NCBI RefSeq assembly: GCF_003351785.1
Contig: NZ_CP031230.1
Span: 248,001 to 312,000 of the forward strand
Source of the DNA: Sporosarcina sp. PTS2304
GTDB taxonomy: Bacteria > Bacillota > Bacilli > Bacillales_A > Planococcaceae
Direction: 5' to 3'
Length of the DNA stretch: 64,000 nucleotides
Below the pieces are notes generated by a model. That model was not told the origin of the DNA, ran no database searches, and saw only the letters and a list, made by a program, of their open reading frames with translations. The translations under genes were made by a program, and so were the position numbers. Below are positions 3,453-18,024 of the stretch, one piece after another (within the stretch, counting starts at the first letter, position 1; every line of letters begins with the position of its first letter).

Positions 3453-4262
3453 TTATTTCAAAAGTGACACAGCGTCTTGCAAATTATTATTCACAGACTT
3501 AATCAGCATTTGATCACCTTTTTGACGAATATCTTGCTGGACAAAATTCATCATTTCCTTTGCCATGTCTGTATCAGCCAGCATGGAAAGTGATTGAGTG
3601 ATATTGCCTTCAAACACAAGAGCGTTTTCTAAATGGTGCTCAATTCCGCTCATTTCTGACCCTACTTTCGTTAGCTGACCGCTAATAGTTTCAATCGCTT
3701 TGTCGAGAGTAGAGATGAGTTCGGAGGCGTCTTGTCGAGTAGCGATCGATGCGCCGTCCAAGCCGAGTGCTGATGTGCTGACGTCGATGTCGCCAATGGT
3801 CATTTTTTGACCTGGATTGGCACCGACTTGCAAATTGAGTGGATTGTCACCGCCGAGAATCTTCATTGTGTTGAATTCCAGTTTTCCCGCTGTGTCGTTG
3901 ATCGCCTGCATAATTTGATCGAGTTCCATCGTACTGGATTTGCGATCGTCGTCTGTTAACGTATCGTTGGCGGCGGCTACTGCCATTTCTCGTCCACGTT
4001 GGAGTAAGTCGTTAATATTGTTTAACCCTTCGTTGGACAATTCGAGTACAGAAAGACCGTCTTGCATATTGCGTTGCGCTTGGGAAAGTCCCTTGATTTG
4101 AGCACGCATCGTTTCAGAAATGGCTAGACCTGATGCACTTTGGCTGGCGGTCGCTACTTTTGAACCGGTACTGAGCTTCATGAGCGTCTTTTCCATGTCC
4201 GTCGCATTCCTTTGCGTACGATTCGTTGAAAACGCAATATTTTCTGAGCTGTGTATTCGCAT
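3453..4262 (-). CDS. Short second flagellin (flagellin paralogue)
   Basis: A 269-residue flagellin with conserved D0/D1 ends. The N-terminal part has RIHSSENIAFSTNRTQRN, LSTGSKVATASQSASGLAISETMRAQIKG and DGLSVLELSNEGLNNI. The C-terminal part has DTDMAKEMMNFVQQDIRQKGDQMLIKSVNNNL. The variable D2/D3 region is very small. The first residues (MRIHSSENI) and the last (DAVSLLK) differ from the canonical MIINHN and VLQLLR of the main Hag at 14579. It may therefore be a minor or alternative filament subunit, or a decaying paralogue. It is divergent from a FliS-like gene and the pair lies between two copies of the composite repeat. Its strand is opposite to all other flagellar genes here. Confidence 0.85.
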   Translation of the reverse strand: MRIHSSENIAFSTNRTQRNATDMEKTLMKLSTGSKVATASQSASGLAISETMRAQIKGLSQAQRNMQDGLSVLELSNEGLNNINDLLQRGREMAVAAANDTLTDDDRKSSTMELDQIMQAINDTAGKLEFNTMKILGGDNPLNLQVGANPGQKMTIGDIDVSTSALGLDGASIATRQDASELISTLDKAIETISGQLTKVGSEMSGIEHHLENALVFEGNITQSLSMLADTDMAKEMMNFVQQDIRQKGDQMLIKSVNNNLQDAVSLLK

Positions 4263-11274: not shown

Positions 11275-12150
11275 ATGCGCGTAACACAATCAATGCTGTC
11301 GCAAAATATGTTGCGAAACTTATCAAGCAGCTATACAAAAATGGGAAAACTACAAGAACAACTAAATACAGGGAAAAAAGTAAATCGCCCGTCTGATGAT
11401 CCAGTCGTCGTCATGAAAGGATTAGGCTACGGTATGCAAGTAGACAAAGTCGCTCAATTCCAAAAGAACTTAGGTGAAGTAAATAACTGGCTCGATAGCT
11501 CAGATGACGCGCTTGACGGTGTAGGGGGCGTCCTGCATCGTGCGCGAGAATTAGTGGCCAATGCGGCAAATACAGGAACTATGACAGGTAAAGACCGTGA
11601 AAAAATTAAAATTGAATTGGAACAACTGCAATCACAGCTCCAAGACTTGGCGAATACTAAAGTCGGTGACAAGCATATTTTTAGTGGGAAAATGACCGAT
11701 CAGCCGTTATTCGATAAAGCGACGGGTTCGTATAATTCAGATGCGCCATTTAAAGAACATGTCACGATTGAAGTGTTTGACGGAGTCGATCTTCGCGTCA
11801 GCACGAACGTCTCCGATATGTTCAATAATATTAACCAGCTATTTGCCGATATTAAAAATAATACAGACGATACGTATGACTTTAGTGGAGCGCTTGAGAA
11901 AGTAGATATGTTATTTGACGATGTGTTAACGAAGCGTGCAGATATCGGGGCGCGTTCCAATCGTGCGGAGCTTATGCACAACCGTCTGGAAATGCAAGAA
12001 GGCGCGGCGAAAAAACAACGTTCTGAAAACGAAGACGTCGATTATGAAAAAACCATTACTGATTTAATCACATCGGAATCGATCCACCGTGCGACATTAT
12101 CCGTCGGAGCACGTATTATCCAACCTTCACTGGTTGATTTCTTGCGATAA
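11275..12150 (+). CDS. flgL: FlgL, hook-associated protein 3
   Basis: A 291-residue FlgL. The N-terminal flagellin-like domain has MRVTQSMLSQNMLRNLSSSYTKMGKLQEQLNTGKKVNRPSDDP. The C-terminus has ENEDVDYEKTITDLITSESIHRATLSVGARIIQPSLVDFLR, the FlgL form of the flagellin C-terminal helix. It lies 16 bases after flgK with AAGGAGGA before the start. The downstream yviE-fliW-csrA part, normally contiguous, is pushed 0.8 kb away by the third composite repeat. Confidence 0.95.
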   Translation: MRVTQSMLSQNMLRNLSSSYTKMGKLQEQLNTGKKVNRPSDDPVVVMKGLGYGMQVDKVAQFQKNLGEVNNWLDSSDDALDGVGGVLHRARELVANAANTGTMTGKDREKIKIELEQLQSQLQDLANTKVGDKHIFSGKMTDQPLFDKATGSYNSDAPFKEHVTIEVFDGVDLRVSTNVSDMFNNINQLFADIKNNTDDTYDFSGALEKVDMLFDDVLTKRADIGARSNRAELMHNRLEMQEGAAKKQRSENEDVDYEKTITDLITSESIHRATLSVGARIIQPSLVDFLR

Positions 12151-14578: not shown

Positions 14579-15565
14579 ATGATTATCAATCACAATATGG
14601 CAGCGATGAACACACATCGCCAACTAGGTTCAAACAACGCAGCAGCAGCTAACAACATCGAGAAATTGTCTTCAGGTTTGAAGATCAACCGTGCAGGAGA
14701 CGATGCAGCTGGTCTAGCAATCTCTGAGAAAATGCGTGGACAGATTCGTGGTCTAGATATGGCAGCGAAAAACTCACAGGATGGTATCTCCATGATCCAA
14801 ACTGCTGAGGGTGCTTTGAACGAAACACACGATATTCTACAACGTATGCGTGAGCTAGCTACACAAGCAGCGAACGATACTAACGTTAAGTCTGACCGTA
14901 GTGAAATTCAAAAAGAGCTTAACTCATTAACTTCCGAAATCAACCGTATTGCTAATACAACTGAGTTTAACACTCAGAAATTGATGGACGGTGCTGGAAT
15001 GAGTGGAGGAGCAGCTGGTGGTGGAAAAGCATTCTCAGCTAACTTACAAATTGGTGCGAACACTGGACAAGCAATGAATGTTGAAATTCAAGATATGTCT
15101 GCTAAAGCACTTGGTTTGACTTCGAGTGGTGCTGGCGCTACTCACAGTGCTGGTACATCCGTAACGTCATTAACTGGTGAAGCTGCAGGAGTAGCCAATG
15201 CAAAACATACAAGTGGAGCTGCTGGTGTAACTAACGGTACTACAAATGTTGCAAATGAACACGGTTTAGATGTTTCTTCACATGCTAACGCCACTGCAGC
15301 GATCAAAGCAATCGATAATGCGATTGAAACTGTTTCTGCACAACGTTCTAGCCTAGGTGCATTCCAAAACCGTCTAGAACACACAATTAACAACTTAGGT
15401 ACTTCATCTGAAAACTTGACTGCAGCTGAATCTCGTATTAGAGATGTTGATATGGCCAAGGAAATGATGGACTTTACTAAGAACAACATCTTAACTCAAG
15501 CAGCACAAGCAATGCTTTCTCAATCGAATCAGATGCCTCAAGGTGTTCTTCAACTCCTTCGGTAA
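14579..15565 (+). CDS. hag: Flagellin Hag (main filament protein), upstream reading frame ending in its own stop
   Basis: A 328-residue flagellin. The N-terminal D0/D1 part has MIINHNMAAMNTHRQLG, SSGLKINRAGDDAAGLAISE and NSQDGISMIQTAEGALNETH. The variable centre (about residues 140-235) is small and rich in A, G, S and T, which suits O-glycosylation. The C-terminal part has RIRDVDMAKEMMDFTKNNIL and ends in PQGVLQLLR. The gene has a SigD promoter, a CsrA-type leader and AAGGAGG. The oddity is that the last 15 codons (15518-15562) and the stop lie upstream of a group I intron core, and a second coding version of the same C-terminus follows that core at 15889-15936. The mature 3' end may therefore depend on splicing. 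Confidence 0.95.
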   Translation: MIINHNMAAMNTHRQLGSNNAAAANNIEKLSSGLKINRAGDDAAGLAISEKMRGQIRGLDMAAKNSQDGISMIQTAEGALNETHDILQRMRELATQAANDTNVKSDRSEIQKELNSLTSEINRIANTTEFNTQKLMDGAGMSGGAAGGGKAFSANLQIGANTGQAMNVEIQDMSAKALGLTSSGAGATHSAGTSVTSLTGEAAGVANAKHTSGAAGVTNGTTNVANEHGLDVSSHANATAAIKAIDNAIETVSAQRSSLGAFQNRLEHTINNLGTSSENLTAAESRIRDVDMAKEMMDFTKNNILTQAAQAMLSQSNQMPQGVLQLLR

Positions 15566-15888
15566 CTGGTTCAGGGACGCCTATTCGGTAACGGATAGGA
15601 CGCATAACTGGGTGAATTGCTGGAACATCCTGAAGTCTACTTTCCTACAACGCAGCTGGAAACGGCAAACGTGAATGGTTGAAAAAAAGTAGAATTGGAC
15701 AATCAGCAGCCAAGCTCCTGTGAAGAAATTCTGGAGAAGGTTCAACGACTAGGATATACCGTCTAAGGCATACGCTATGACGATGAAATCCGTAGGGCGT
15801 CAAAAGACGTTCGAAGTGCCCAGCATCCTAGGTATTTAGATACAAGGATGGAGATATAGTCTGACCCTATTAGAGACAATAGGACTAG
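15518..15888 (+). ncRNA. Group I intron in or at the 3' end of hag (5' boundary uncertain)
   Basis: Core elements are present in order. P2 is a hairpin CCTATTCG-GTAA-CGGATAGG (15580-15599). P3 pairs GACGC (15599-15603) with GCGTC (15797-15801). P4 is formed by AATTGCTGGAA (15615-15625) with AATCAGCAGCCAAG (15701-15714), the conserved P and Q strings. P7 pairs GACTA in TTCAACGACTA (15741-15751) with TAGTC in GATATAGTCTG (15853-15863). P9 pairs CCTATT with AATAGG (15866-15883). The terminal G would be 15888. The 3' end is supported by resumption of flagellin codons at 15889. The 5' splice site is unclear: 15517/15518 restores a perfect flagellin, but UCCUU (15555-15559) with AGGGA (15573-15577) makes a better P1. 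Confidence 0.8.
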
Positions 15889-15936
15889 TCGCAAGCGAAT
15901 CAACAGCCTCAGGGCGTACTACAATTACTACGTTAA
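15889..15936 (+). other. hag: Second coding copy of the flagellin C-terminus (putative 3' exon of hag)
   Basis: Directly after the presumed last G of the intron, the sequence encodes SQANQQPQGVLQLLR and a stop. The upstream frame ends SQSNQMPQGVLQLLR. The two versions use largely different codons, so this is not a recent duplication. Joining 15517 to 15889 would give a normal flagellin end. Confidence 0.8.
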
Positions 15937-15953: not shown

Positions 15954-15985
15954 AAAAGAGACTTCTTTCGAGAAGTCTCTTTTTC
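15954..15985. terminator. Bidirectional terminator between hag/intron and the homing endonuclease gene
   Basis: AAAAGAGACTTCT and AGAAGTCTCTTTTT form a 13-bp stem around TTCG. T runs flank it on both strands. It serves the convergent hag transcript and the minus-strand gene. Confidence 0.9.
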
Positions 15986-17892
15986 TATAACTTTTTTTGC
16001 TGTCGCAATTCACGTATTTTATAGACTACTGACCAATAACTTCTATTTAAAACGTCTGCAATTTGCTGGTCTGTTCTTCCAGCTCGTTTCATACATAACA
16101 GCTTTTCTACTTCATTTGGTGTGTAGGGGCGCATACGTTTCCTATCGCTAACTAATAATTGATAATCAGGATACTTCTTATGCCATTTTTCTTTTTCTAA
16201 ATAAAATCGGTAATTCCAGTTAGTTTTATAACTCATAGAAGGACAAGTTATTATCGCTGGCTCGATGTCGTGAAGAAATTTTAGCGAATCCGCAGTTCTA
16301 TTAGTTCGAAGATAATAGCCTTGTCCATCAGGTCGTTTAATAGTTGCAAACTCGGCAGAAGATAGTGATTTCAAATGTTCTTTTAACATTTCAAGTTCCT
16401 GATACGTAAAGTTTTGCAAATAAAGAGCTATATGTGGGGTTACATATATCTTTTTATAATTATGGTTTATTCGATTACTCAGTAGCAATGATCCGTCATC
16501 CATATAAATGGTAGCTAAGCTGTAGATATCCGTTAAATTAATAAGTTGTTCAGAAGGTAATTGTTTGATTCTATACCCTCTGTTCTTTTCTTTCCTGTAA
16601 AATTGGTTTTCAAGTATACTCCATAAATTATTTACTCTTGAGTCAATTGTATTGCCTTTAGAATTAAAATAAAAATAAGGCAGCATTTTCATGACTTTCC
16701 AAGCTCGATAATCTTGTTGTTTTATAGAAAAATGTTCATGGTAAGTGCTTCTTATTCCGTATTGTTTTGTTGGGATATGTGTTAGCATTCCATCTCCCAT
16801 AATTGAACCCAACACAATATTTTGTTGCGTAGTCGAAAGGTCGTCCAATGTATGAAGCGGCCGTGGGTAAATGCTGTTATGCTGATGGAAACACTCCTGC
16901 GCAATCTCACCTAATGTCAAACCTGTTTGTGCTTGTAGACGACAAAGAGTGGCTTGGTTCTCTTCCGTCAGGCTGATTTGGTAGCGAGAGGAGTCGTTCT
17001 GTTCTTGTCGAGCGTAGTTCAGTCGCTGGAAGTTCTCGTCAGTAATCTCGACATTACCGGCGTGTTGTTCAATAATTTTATTGATTTCTGCGGTAGGTTT
17101 TGTCAATTTTATATGGTTCGGCAGGCGCAGAGTAGTCCGCTTTGCTATTGATTTTAGAGCGGTACTATTTTTGCGTTTGTAGTGAAATAATGGGTGGATC
17201 CATGGATTGACTAGTGAAAGAAAATGATTGATTTGTAATTGATCGTAAAGTAACAATCTTTTCTGTCCGTCAATTGCAAATAGTAAATTGAATTTACTGT
17301 TCAAGACATACTGCAATAGCGCGAGTTCTTCTTCACTCCATTGTTCTGTAGAGAGAATTAGCTTCTCAAGCGTGCCGTTCTTTTTTACTTTCAGATGGCC
17401 ACATTCTTGGTACCACCATGCAAGTGTTTGTTCATTCATATAATGTTCTATAAAAAATAGCGGTAATTCTTTCTGCCCCGTCGGATACGAGAGATCACGC
17501 AGTTCATTTGTTAGAGGGCATAGATTTGATTTCAGGACGATTCGTTTAGTGGAATGGTCTTGTATGTCACGAACATTCTCTATGCAGAACTTAATAGACG
17601 CTAGTGTGCTCTTCAGTTGCCGGTGACAAGCAACAGCCCAGTCATACTGTGTGTAACGGTAGAGGAAACGGATAGAAGGCTGACCATCAACATCGGCATT
17701 TATGCTGCCATTGCCGAGTAACTTTGCGCACAACAAACTGTATGACGTAGAGTTTGTATCTTTTGCGATAAAAGGGGATAAAGAGTTTTGAGCTACATAG
17801 TCTTTTTGTAAACTATACTGAGCTTCTTGATCTTCGTAAAGATACAAAGATGACCTCCGACAAGCTGTATAAAAAGTAACTCGATTAGCCAT
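15985..17892 (-). CDS. LAGLIDADG homing endonuclease, double-length, with C-terminal helix-turn-helix
   Basis: A 635-residue protein made of two LAGLIDADG units. Unit 1 has LLCAKLLGNGS (about 53-63) and LAWWYQECGHL (157-167), where acidic active-site residues are replaced, so it looks inactive. Unit 2 has VLGSIMGDG (about 360-368) and LATIYMDDGSL (459-469), with the catalytic Asp in both motifs and the typical family ending. The last 48 residues (PNEVEKLLCMKRAGRTDQQIADVLNRSYWSVVYKIREL) form a Myb/HTH-like DNA-binding segment. ATG at 17892 is chosen because AGGAGGGG lies 5 bases upstream. The gene faces hag across one terminator and does not lie inside the intron. It probably cuts intron-less flagellin alleles and mobilises the intron. 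Confidence 0.85.
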   Translation of the reverse strand: MANRVTFYTACRRSSLYLYEDQEAQYSLQKDYVAQNSLSPFIAKDTNSTSYSLLCAKLLGNGSINADVDGQPSIRFLYRYTQYDWAVACHRQLKSTLASIKFCIENVRDIQDHSTKRIVLKSNLCPLTNELRDLSYPTGQKELPLFFIEHYMNEQTLAWWYQECGHLKVKKNGTLEKLILSTEQWSEEELALLQYVLNSKFNLLFAIDGQKRLLLYDQLQINHFLSLVNPWIHPLFHYKRKNSTALKSIAKRTTLRLPNHIKLTKPTAEINKIIEQHAGNVEITDENFQRLNYARQEQNDSSRYQISLTEENQATLCRLQAQTGLTLGEIAQECFHQHNSIYPRPLHTLDDLSTTQQNIVLGSIMGDGMLTHIPTKQYGIRSTYHEHFSIKQQDYRAWKVMKMLPYFYFNSKGNTIDSRVNNLWSILENQFYRKEKNRGYRIKQLPSEQLINLTDIYSLATIYMDDGSLLLSNRINHNYKKIYVTPHIALYLQNFTYQELEMLKEHLKSLSSAEFATIKRPDGQGYYLRTNRTADSLKFLHDIEPAIITCPSMSYKTNWNYRFYLEKEKWHKKYPDYQLLVSDRKRMRPYTPNEVEKLLCMKRAGRTDQQIADVLNRSYWSVVYKIRELRQQKKL

Positions 17893-18024
17893 AAAAACCC
17901 CTCCTAAACGGGAATATATGTTCTTATTATATGTTGTGATCATTAATAAAGCTATAAATAACTTGCTATTATGACATATGAAAAACAGCTAAAACATAAA
18001 ACATTTTGTACAGCCTAATCACAC

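Follow-up and report, generated by a model that had tools for sequence, protein, structure and literature searches.

Introduction

Group I introns have been reported in the flagellin genes of Geobacillus stearothermophilus and of thermophilic Bacillus (Hayakawa and Ishizuka 2009, 2012, as cited in PMC3984707 and PMC4853749). Earlier work, as related in PMC4853749, found that the splicing of flagellin introns is temperature-dependent and suggested a regulatory role for it. A copy of the flagellin C-terminus inside the intron is not mentioned in the accounts that PMC3984707 and PMC4853749 give of these introns. Group I introns are otherwise scarce in bacterial protein genes, and the usual reason given is the coupling of transcription to translation (PMC3984707, PMC3073962). 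A ribosome may arrive at the 5' junction while the 3' site is still untranscribed, splicing can be helped by the translation of exon 1, and an in-frame stop soon past the 5' junction is present in most group I introns (PMC3073962; similarly PMC3984707). In such phage and bacterial introns run-in translation is halted ahead of the core, and the stop leaves a truncated protein (PMC3073962, PMC3984707).

Mobile elements that carry a host C-terminus have been described in mitochondria, in the atp6 gene of Allomyces and in the atp6, atp9, cox2 and nad3 genes of Glomus (PMC3630166). These elements bring an in-frame version of the host C-terminus beside an endonuclease gene, and their copies differ mostly synonymously. 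The foreign end replaces the native one there, and the native end of atp6 or cox2 was not found in mRNA (PMC3630166). The WHO homing elements of yeast carry the 3' end of their target gene, FBA1, and leave the old end downstream; the replacement takes place at the DNA level, no intron is involved, and the displaced fragment need not stay open (PMC7282813). In yeast HAC1, the intron of which is not group I, a tail encoded by the intron in the unspliced message sets the fate of the protein by marking it for destruction (PMC5114014).

Here we describe the flagellin gene hag of Sporosarcina sp. PTS2304, which lies in a 64,000-nucleotide stretch of DNA that is called the window below. Like the Geobacillus and Bacillus examples, it has a group I intron in a flagellin gene of the Bacilli; they probably belong to the same intron family, because Geobacillus jurassicus (L182) holds an intron with the same kind of tail at the same site. 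The hag intron resembles the early-stop introns in that run-in translation would be halted ahead of the core, but its frame first completes the host protein. It resembles the Allomyces and Glomus elements in the in-frame copy, the nearby endonuclease gene and the mostly synonymous differences. In hag, by contrast, splicing by the ribozyme should bring back the native end, both ends appear to be under selection, and the copy forms part of the predicted P1 helix. The likeness to the WHO elements lies in the carried gene end with the old end downstream. HAC1 finds its parallel in introns at a second site in the flagellin genes, described below, whereas the hag tail would complete the protein. A literature search, with most subscription papers beyond its reach, returned no description of a C-terminal copy inside a flagellin intron. 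We know of no described bacterial case of an intron that carries a copy of its host's C-terminus.

Results

The hag locus has two complete C-terminal endings

The features of the locus are listed below by position in the window, with strand and basis.

14579-15565, forward: hag ORF in the unspliced reading, ending SQSNQMPQGVLQLLR and a stop.
14579-15520, forward: hag (flagellin) exon 1, ending ...QAMLS (ORF, Pfam, boundary set by relatives).
15518-15521, forward: predicted 5' strand of P1, UCU/C, spanning the 5' splice site; pairs with 15574-15577, with a U15520-G15575 wobble (fold).
15521-15891, forward: group I intron, 371 nt, final base G15891 (RF00028 match and junctions from relatives).
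15521-15565, forward: in-intron copy of the flagellin C-terminus, QSNQMPQGVLQLLR and TAA, in the exon 1 frame (ORF, conservation, purifying selection).
15526-15532, forward: predicted 5' strand of the P1 extension, GAAUCAG, within the tail codons; pairs with 15566-15572 (fold, swap tests).
15538-15883, forward: predicted catalytic core, taken as the span of the group I model match (RF00028).
15566-15577, forward: predicted 3' strand of P1, adjoining the tail stop, with the extension at 15566-15572 and the guide GGGA at 15574-15577 (fold, pairing tests).
15892-15936, forward: hag exon 2, QANQQPQGVLQLLR and TAA (direct repeat; conserved in relatives).
15954-15983, forward: terminator-like perfect 13-bp inverted repeat, 3' of hag (sequence).
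15985-17943, reverse: free-standing LAGLIDADG endonuclease, 652 aa, two halves fused (Pfam PF03161, two stretches).

A first-pass annotation of the window, made from the sequence and its reading frames, had proposed a group I intron in the flagellin gene and two complete flagellin endings, and both proposals hold. A covariance-model search matched RF00028 at 15538-15883 on the forward strand with 92.1 bits (E 2.5e-22, gathering score 50), covering model positions 1-253 of 253; P4, P7 and P9 are contained in this match as a whole. The sequence thus places the intron in group I, and catalysis is predicted. The intron interrupts hag 14 codons ahead of the stop. The two endings are 14-codon copies, at 15521-15565 and 15892-15936, within a direct repeat of 48 nt and 73% identity (15518-15565 and 15889-15936), and the second copy of the repeat translates to SQANQQPQGVLQLLR followed by a stop. 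In Pfam searches the unspliced hag ORF matches Flagellin_N and Flagellin_C, the latter over its full length. None of 200,000 random 45-mers with the composition of the intron yielded such a tail. The double C-terminal ending of hag is real and is no local oddity, for the layout recurs in relatives.

Compared with its own genome, the intron DNA matches itself and a single 25-nt stretch (E 0.11), the surroundings of which are unlike flagellin. The flagellin-type ORFs of this genome are hag, a divergent ORF at 3453-4262 and a more weakly matching ORF at 11275-12150, which we take to resemble FlgL. The divergent ORF is on the reverse strand, encodes 269 aa ending ...LQDAVSLLK and has no intron match.

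Splice junctions and the P1 helix

Relatives place the junctions of the intron at 15520/15521 and 15891/15892. The first-pass annotation had spliced 15517 to 15889, with a final G at 15888; it had set both junctions 3 nt too far upstream. With the cut placed behind an Ala or Ser codon, all 140 tail-bearing introns have T at base -1, and all 134 that have a locatable exon 2 end in G. In the earlier register these bases are found in only 4 of 140 and 23 of 134 introns. A 5' splice site at 15517/15518 is ruled out by these base registers and by the pairing in P1.

Folding of 15512-15606 gives the conserved P1 as the minimum-free-energy structure (z -3.9), and in the window this fold contains both of the pairings listed above. 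The Rfam alignment draws another P1, with its 5' strand at 15542-15550. The exon triplet and the guide are GCT and GGGC in 134 introns and TCT and GGGA in four, which is a compensatory pair; the latter combination belongs to the window and its nearest relatives (L001, L003-L005). Two further introns were scored as GCT with GGGA under a first-match rule, and both also contain GGGC.

The first codons of the tail pair with the strand that lies between the tail stop and the guide. In comparisons uncorrected for kinship, this P1 extension has a native mean of -5.81 kcal/mol over 122 distinct pairs against -3.83 for swapped strands (0 of 1000 permutations as good), and -5.74 against -3.81 kcal/mol over 91 distinct 3' strands (0 of 2000 as good). 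Taken singly, and again with kinship uncorrected, the native extension is at least as good as the median swap in 96 of the 122 and beats the mean of its synonymous recodings in 108 of the 122. The predicted P1 pairing covaries with the tail. A long P10, formed by exon 2 with the guide extension, is unsupported: the native mean is -2.75 kcal/mol against -2.68 for shuffled pairs, and 495 of 2000 shuffles were as good. For the first 10 nt of exon 2 alone against the guide extension, 54 of 2000 shuffles were as good, and this pairing too is unsupported.

Distribution of the introns and of the tail

With queries that include the tail, and may therefore favour tail-bearing introns, DNA searches found matches in 146 of the 261 genomes of the family (19 genera), many of them spanning the whole intron and both endings, and in 108 of the 398 genomes of a class sample, in which the full-length arrangement is present in other families. 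The order-level search spanned as many genomes, 261, in the one family and its 19 genera, as the family search did and added no taxa. A pattern scan of named genomes, which used the guide and the core only and left the tail untouched, returned at least 117 stretches, of which 80 were made into loci. Among the matches listed, 76 of these 80 loci hold a site-2 intron with a full tail, under at least 37 name groups. The other four are L195 and L198, which hold a site-2 intron without the full tail, and L213 and L219, which gave no intron-profile hit.

The hosts of site-2 introns are nearly all Bacilli. They include Geobacillus, Anoxybacillus, Exiguobacterium, Oceanobacillus, Planococcus, Sporosarcina, Brevibacillus and Paenibacillus, with one host from the Tissierellia, Caloranaerobacter, among the matches listed. 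The label of one record, Pseudomonas sp. ISL-84, is probably wrong.

In the fetched loci, introns are inserted into flagellin genes at two places, site 1 (RIRDVD/MAKEM) and site 2 (AML[AS]/QANQQ). Many flagellin genes hold introns at both sites; the window has one at site 2 only. Sorting of 122 fetched introns assigned 61 to site 1, one of which (L011) is really a site-2 intron, and 56 to site 2, with 5 unplaced. The intron-less flagellins of four other genomes (L314-L317) have both sites empty and a continuous frame across them.

Over all fetched loci, an in-frame C-terminus copy of the kind that the Allomyces and Glomus elements bring, here a 14-residue tail with an in-frame stop, is present in 140 of the 145 distinct site-2 introns. 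In the tail-independent pattern set the full tail is present in 77 of 79 site-2 introns, among the matches listed. There are five exceptions. L021 has a frameshift, L195 has two in-frame stops, and L161, L169 and L198 have short leaders (QFEQVA, QLLVA and QFEQIAA, respectively, each followed by a stop). L195, from Oceanobacillus arenosus, has an intact exon 2 and looks like natural decay of the tail; its two stops suggest that the tail is dispensable there at least. The genome with the frameshifted tail of L021 (G181) has an intact tail in a second flagellin gene (L033). In L177 (G313) roughly 1 kb, which may be an endonuclease ORF, splits the core of the site-2 intron, and both tails end in LLG. 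A search for further short-leader introns near G292, in four genomes, found no site-2 intron besides that of the query.

In a quick tree of 108 cores, with strong support for only 17 of its 105 inner branches, separating the two sites takes two changes, and for the tail label at least six are needed. L161 and L198, with their short leaders, fall among the tail-bearing introns in this tree, so it is probable that a tail can disappear and be replaced.

Selection on the two tails

Over codons 6-14, most of which lie outside the P1-pairing segment, pN/pS is 0.151 for the in-intron tail and 0.133 for exon 2; over all 14 codons the values are 0.218 and 0.098 (distinct sequences, kinship uncorrected). 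The first five codons of the tail are less constrained, with a pN/pS of 0.423 (kinship uncorrected). The other two frames of the in-intron DNA, where they are stop-free, give 1.02 and 3.99. These values indicate that the in-intron tail is under purifying selection at the protein level, and that in codons 6-14 this selection is about as strong as on the true exon. The disused native end of the Allomyces and Glomus elements has no counterpart here, as exon 2 is itself subject to purifying selection and its residues change together with those of the tail.

At codon 8 the two copies have the same residue in 119 of 134 genes (shuffled mean 86, maximum 95), and at codon 14 they do so in 130 of 134 (shuffled mean 109, maximum 116), although the shared ancestry of lineages inflates these counts. 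LLG, QAV and LLQ are examples of ends that are alike in tail and exon. Codon identity at like residues in codons 6-14 is 0.357 between the tail and the exon of the same gene and 0.356 between the tail and the exons of other genomes; the corresponding references are 0.449 between tails and 0.503 between exons. Lineage-specific residues thus match within a gene while codons match no more than they do between genomes. This speaks against a relic and against gene conversion, and conversion between the copies is unsupported by these values. The copies track each other as proteins without sharing codons, and we take this to indicate that one organism translates both. If so, spliced and unspliced RNA would both be in use. 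The tail also keeps residues that are absent from the exon, S at codon 2 and M, L or T at codon 5. Together with the weaker constraint on codons 1-5, these tail-specific residues count against regarding the two ends as proven equivalents.

The adjoining endonuclease

The endonuclease gene at 15985-17943 is free-standing and adjoins the intron-bearing hag, as expected for collaborative homing, in which an intron that has no ORF is served by a separate endonuclease for its site, and its LAGLIDADG product is probably the homing partner of the introns. The window protein is fused; in many relatives the two halves are separate genes, and several of these halves contain stops. Matches to the window endonuclease were found in 33 of 68 genomes of the same genus. 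In a table made by hand for 27 of the 33 genomes, with halves near hag, 10 of 11 genomes that have the N-half only and 1 of 7 that have the C-half only carry an intron at site 1 (p 0.002), an association that is uncorrected for kinship. Site 2 is occupied in 8 of 11 and 7 of 7 of these genomes, respectively (p 0.25, kinship uncorrected). The table leaves out G192, where the match is on another contig, G201, where it is 10 kb away, and four genomes that yielded no flagellin intron, G195, G185, G193 and G231. The window itself combines a fused endonuclease with an empty site 1 (around 15445-15460), so that one would expect the N-half, or else its target, to be inactive. In viral contigs, 11 pattern stretches were considered as possible relatives of the window endonuclease, and none of them is a relative by tblastn.

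Site-1 introns and ssrA-like endings

At site 1 the unspliced frame lacks the rest of the C-terminal region and stops within 5-6 codons. Among 67 distinct site-1 leaders, defined as shorter than 12 residues and keyed on the first 24 nt, 64 end in AA and three in VA immediately before the stop; the commonest ending is YALAA. Endings such as YALAA, YAEAA and YVLSAA, in the site-1 introns of L003-L091, L146-L180 and L181-L260, resemble ssrA degradation tags. The tag of E. coli tmRNA also ends in YALAA. The tmRNA tag is GKQNNNLAFAA in the genome of the window and GKTNNNLAFAA in 11 relatives of the same genus (12 of 21 fetched tmRNA loci scanned). In a control set of 16 non-flagellin introns the run-in frame ends in VA in two and in AA in none. 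Loci L298-L313 hold group I introns in other protein genes of the same family, several of these genes being presumably ribonucleotide reductase genes, and the in-frame leaders of these introns end in varied residues. The Ala codons of many site-1 leaders can lie in the P1 hairpin, so a structural cause of these endings is possible. In the three short site-2 leaders, read by eye, the last codons lie in the P1 loop.

We tentatively suggest that the flagellin introns of the Bacillota have two ways of encoding what becomes of the unspliced product. Near the end of the gene a spare C-terminus would complete the protein, and upstream, or where the tail is absent, an ssrA-like tag would direct it to degradation. 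This is a possibility that we rate somewhat short of probable. If true, it would mean that group I introns carry their own protein quality control.

Discussion

A probable fail-safe intron

We consider it likely that the site-2 intron of hag is a fail-safe intron, a group I intron that splices and in which the stem-loop of P1 has turned into a reserve final exon. If a ribosome arrives at the end of exon 1 while the intron is still untranscribed or unspliced, it would enter the intron, add a near-identical 14-residue C-terminus and halt at 15565, ahead of the catalytic core. The unspliced message would thereby yield a complete flagellin. P1 would then form, with the first tail codons serving as one of its strands, the intron at 15521-15891 would be excised, and translation after splicing would give the canonical tail. 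The cost of the intron would thus be hidden in a highly expressed, polymerising protein. A C-terminally truncated flagellin would harm filament assembly. The anatomy of the locus, its recurrence, the selection on both tails, the covariation of P1 and the match between the residues of the tails are present in the sequences themselves. From them we infer that both RNAs exist and are translated, that events follow in this order, and that the benefit is the avoidance of truncated flagellin.

Other readings of the locus

An unlikely alternative to this fail-safe role is a regulated switch between isoforms, in which splicing follows temperature or growth and the two tails make functionally different flagellins. 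The consensus of the tail does differ from that of the exon at codons 2 and 5, and the temperature-dependent splicing and suggested regulatory role reported earlier (PMC4853749) would agree with a switch. The differing codons, however, sit in the less constrained part of the tail that pairs in P1, and the remainder, lineage-specific residues included, matches the exon, so that equivalence fits better than functional divergence. It is very unlikely that the intron no longer splices, with the tail as the sole C-terminus and the core and exon 2 as relics. Pfam does show the unspliced ORF as a complete flagellin, but the low pN/pS of exon 2 over its 14 codons (0.098), the way exon 2 follows the residue changes of the tail, a core that still scores 92 bits and the invariant U and G at the junctions all speak for splicing. 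Many of these genes also hold a site-1 intron; its core is similar, and at that site the frame of the unspliced message makes no complete flagellin. The first-pass annotation had offered, as one option, that the start of the intron had come to encode the host C-terminus, so that splicing was no longer needed and two flagellin forms were made. The coding part of this option agrees with our analysis, and two forms would be expected; the loss of need for splicing does not agree with the conservation of exon 2 and the core.

Even less probable is that the tail is conserved only as RNA, in P1, or as homology for homing. Its first codons do pair in P1, but codons 6-14 vary mostly synonymously, the position of the stop is fixed, and the residues coevolve with those of exon 2 despite dissimilar codons. 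The first-pass annotation had also raised recombination with an intron-less allele, which would have restored the end of the gene and left a dying intron behind. Two 48-nt copies with 73% identity are what two alleles might look like, but a local accident of this kind is highly improbable when the identical layout recurs at the identical site in 76 of the 80 named loci, under at least 37 name groups among the matches listed, and in several other families. Least credible of all is the last of its options, a 5' splice site after 15559 that would give a flagellin with a duplicated end. The P1 of the Rfam alignment, with 15542-15550 as its 5' strand, would suit such a site, whereas the U at -1 in 140 of 140 introns and the conserved, covarying P1 fix it at 15520/15521.

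Implications

The proposed fail-safe intron seems to solve the problem of coupled transcription and translation by encoding the end of the host protein within its own P1. One stretch of RNA would serve as the substrate helix of the ribozyme, as coding sequence and as stop. A tail-bearing intron would leave flagellin unsilenced when unspliced, and the regulatory proposal for flagellin introns therefore needs checking for the presence of a tail. Where such introns go unrecognised, the predicted C-terminus of the flagellin would be that of the unspliced form. The arrangement makes it testable how a selfish ribozyme may turn harmless in a highly expressed gene.
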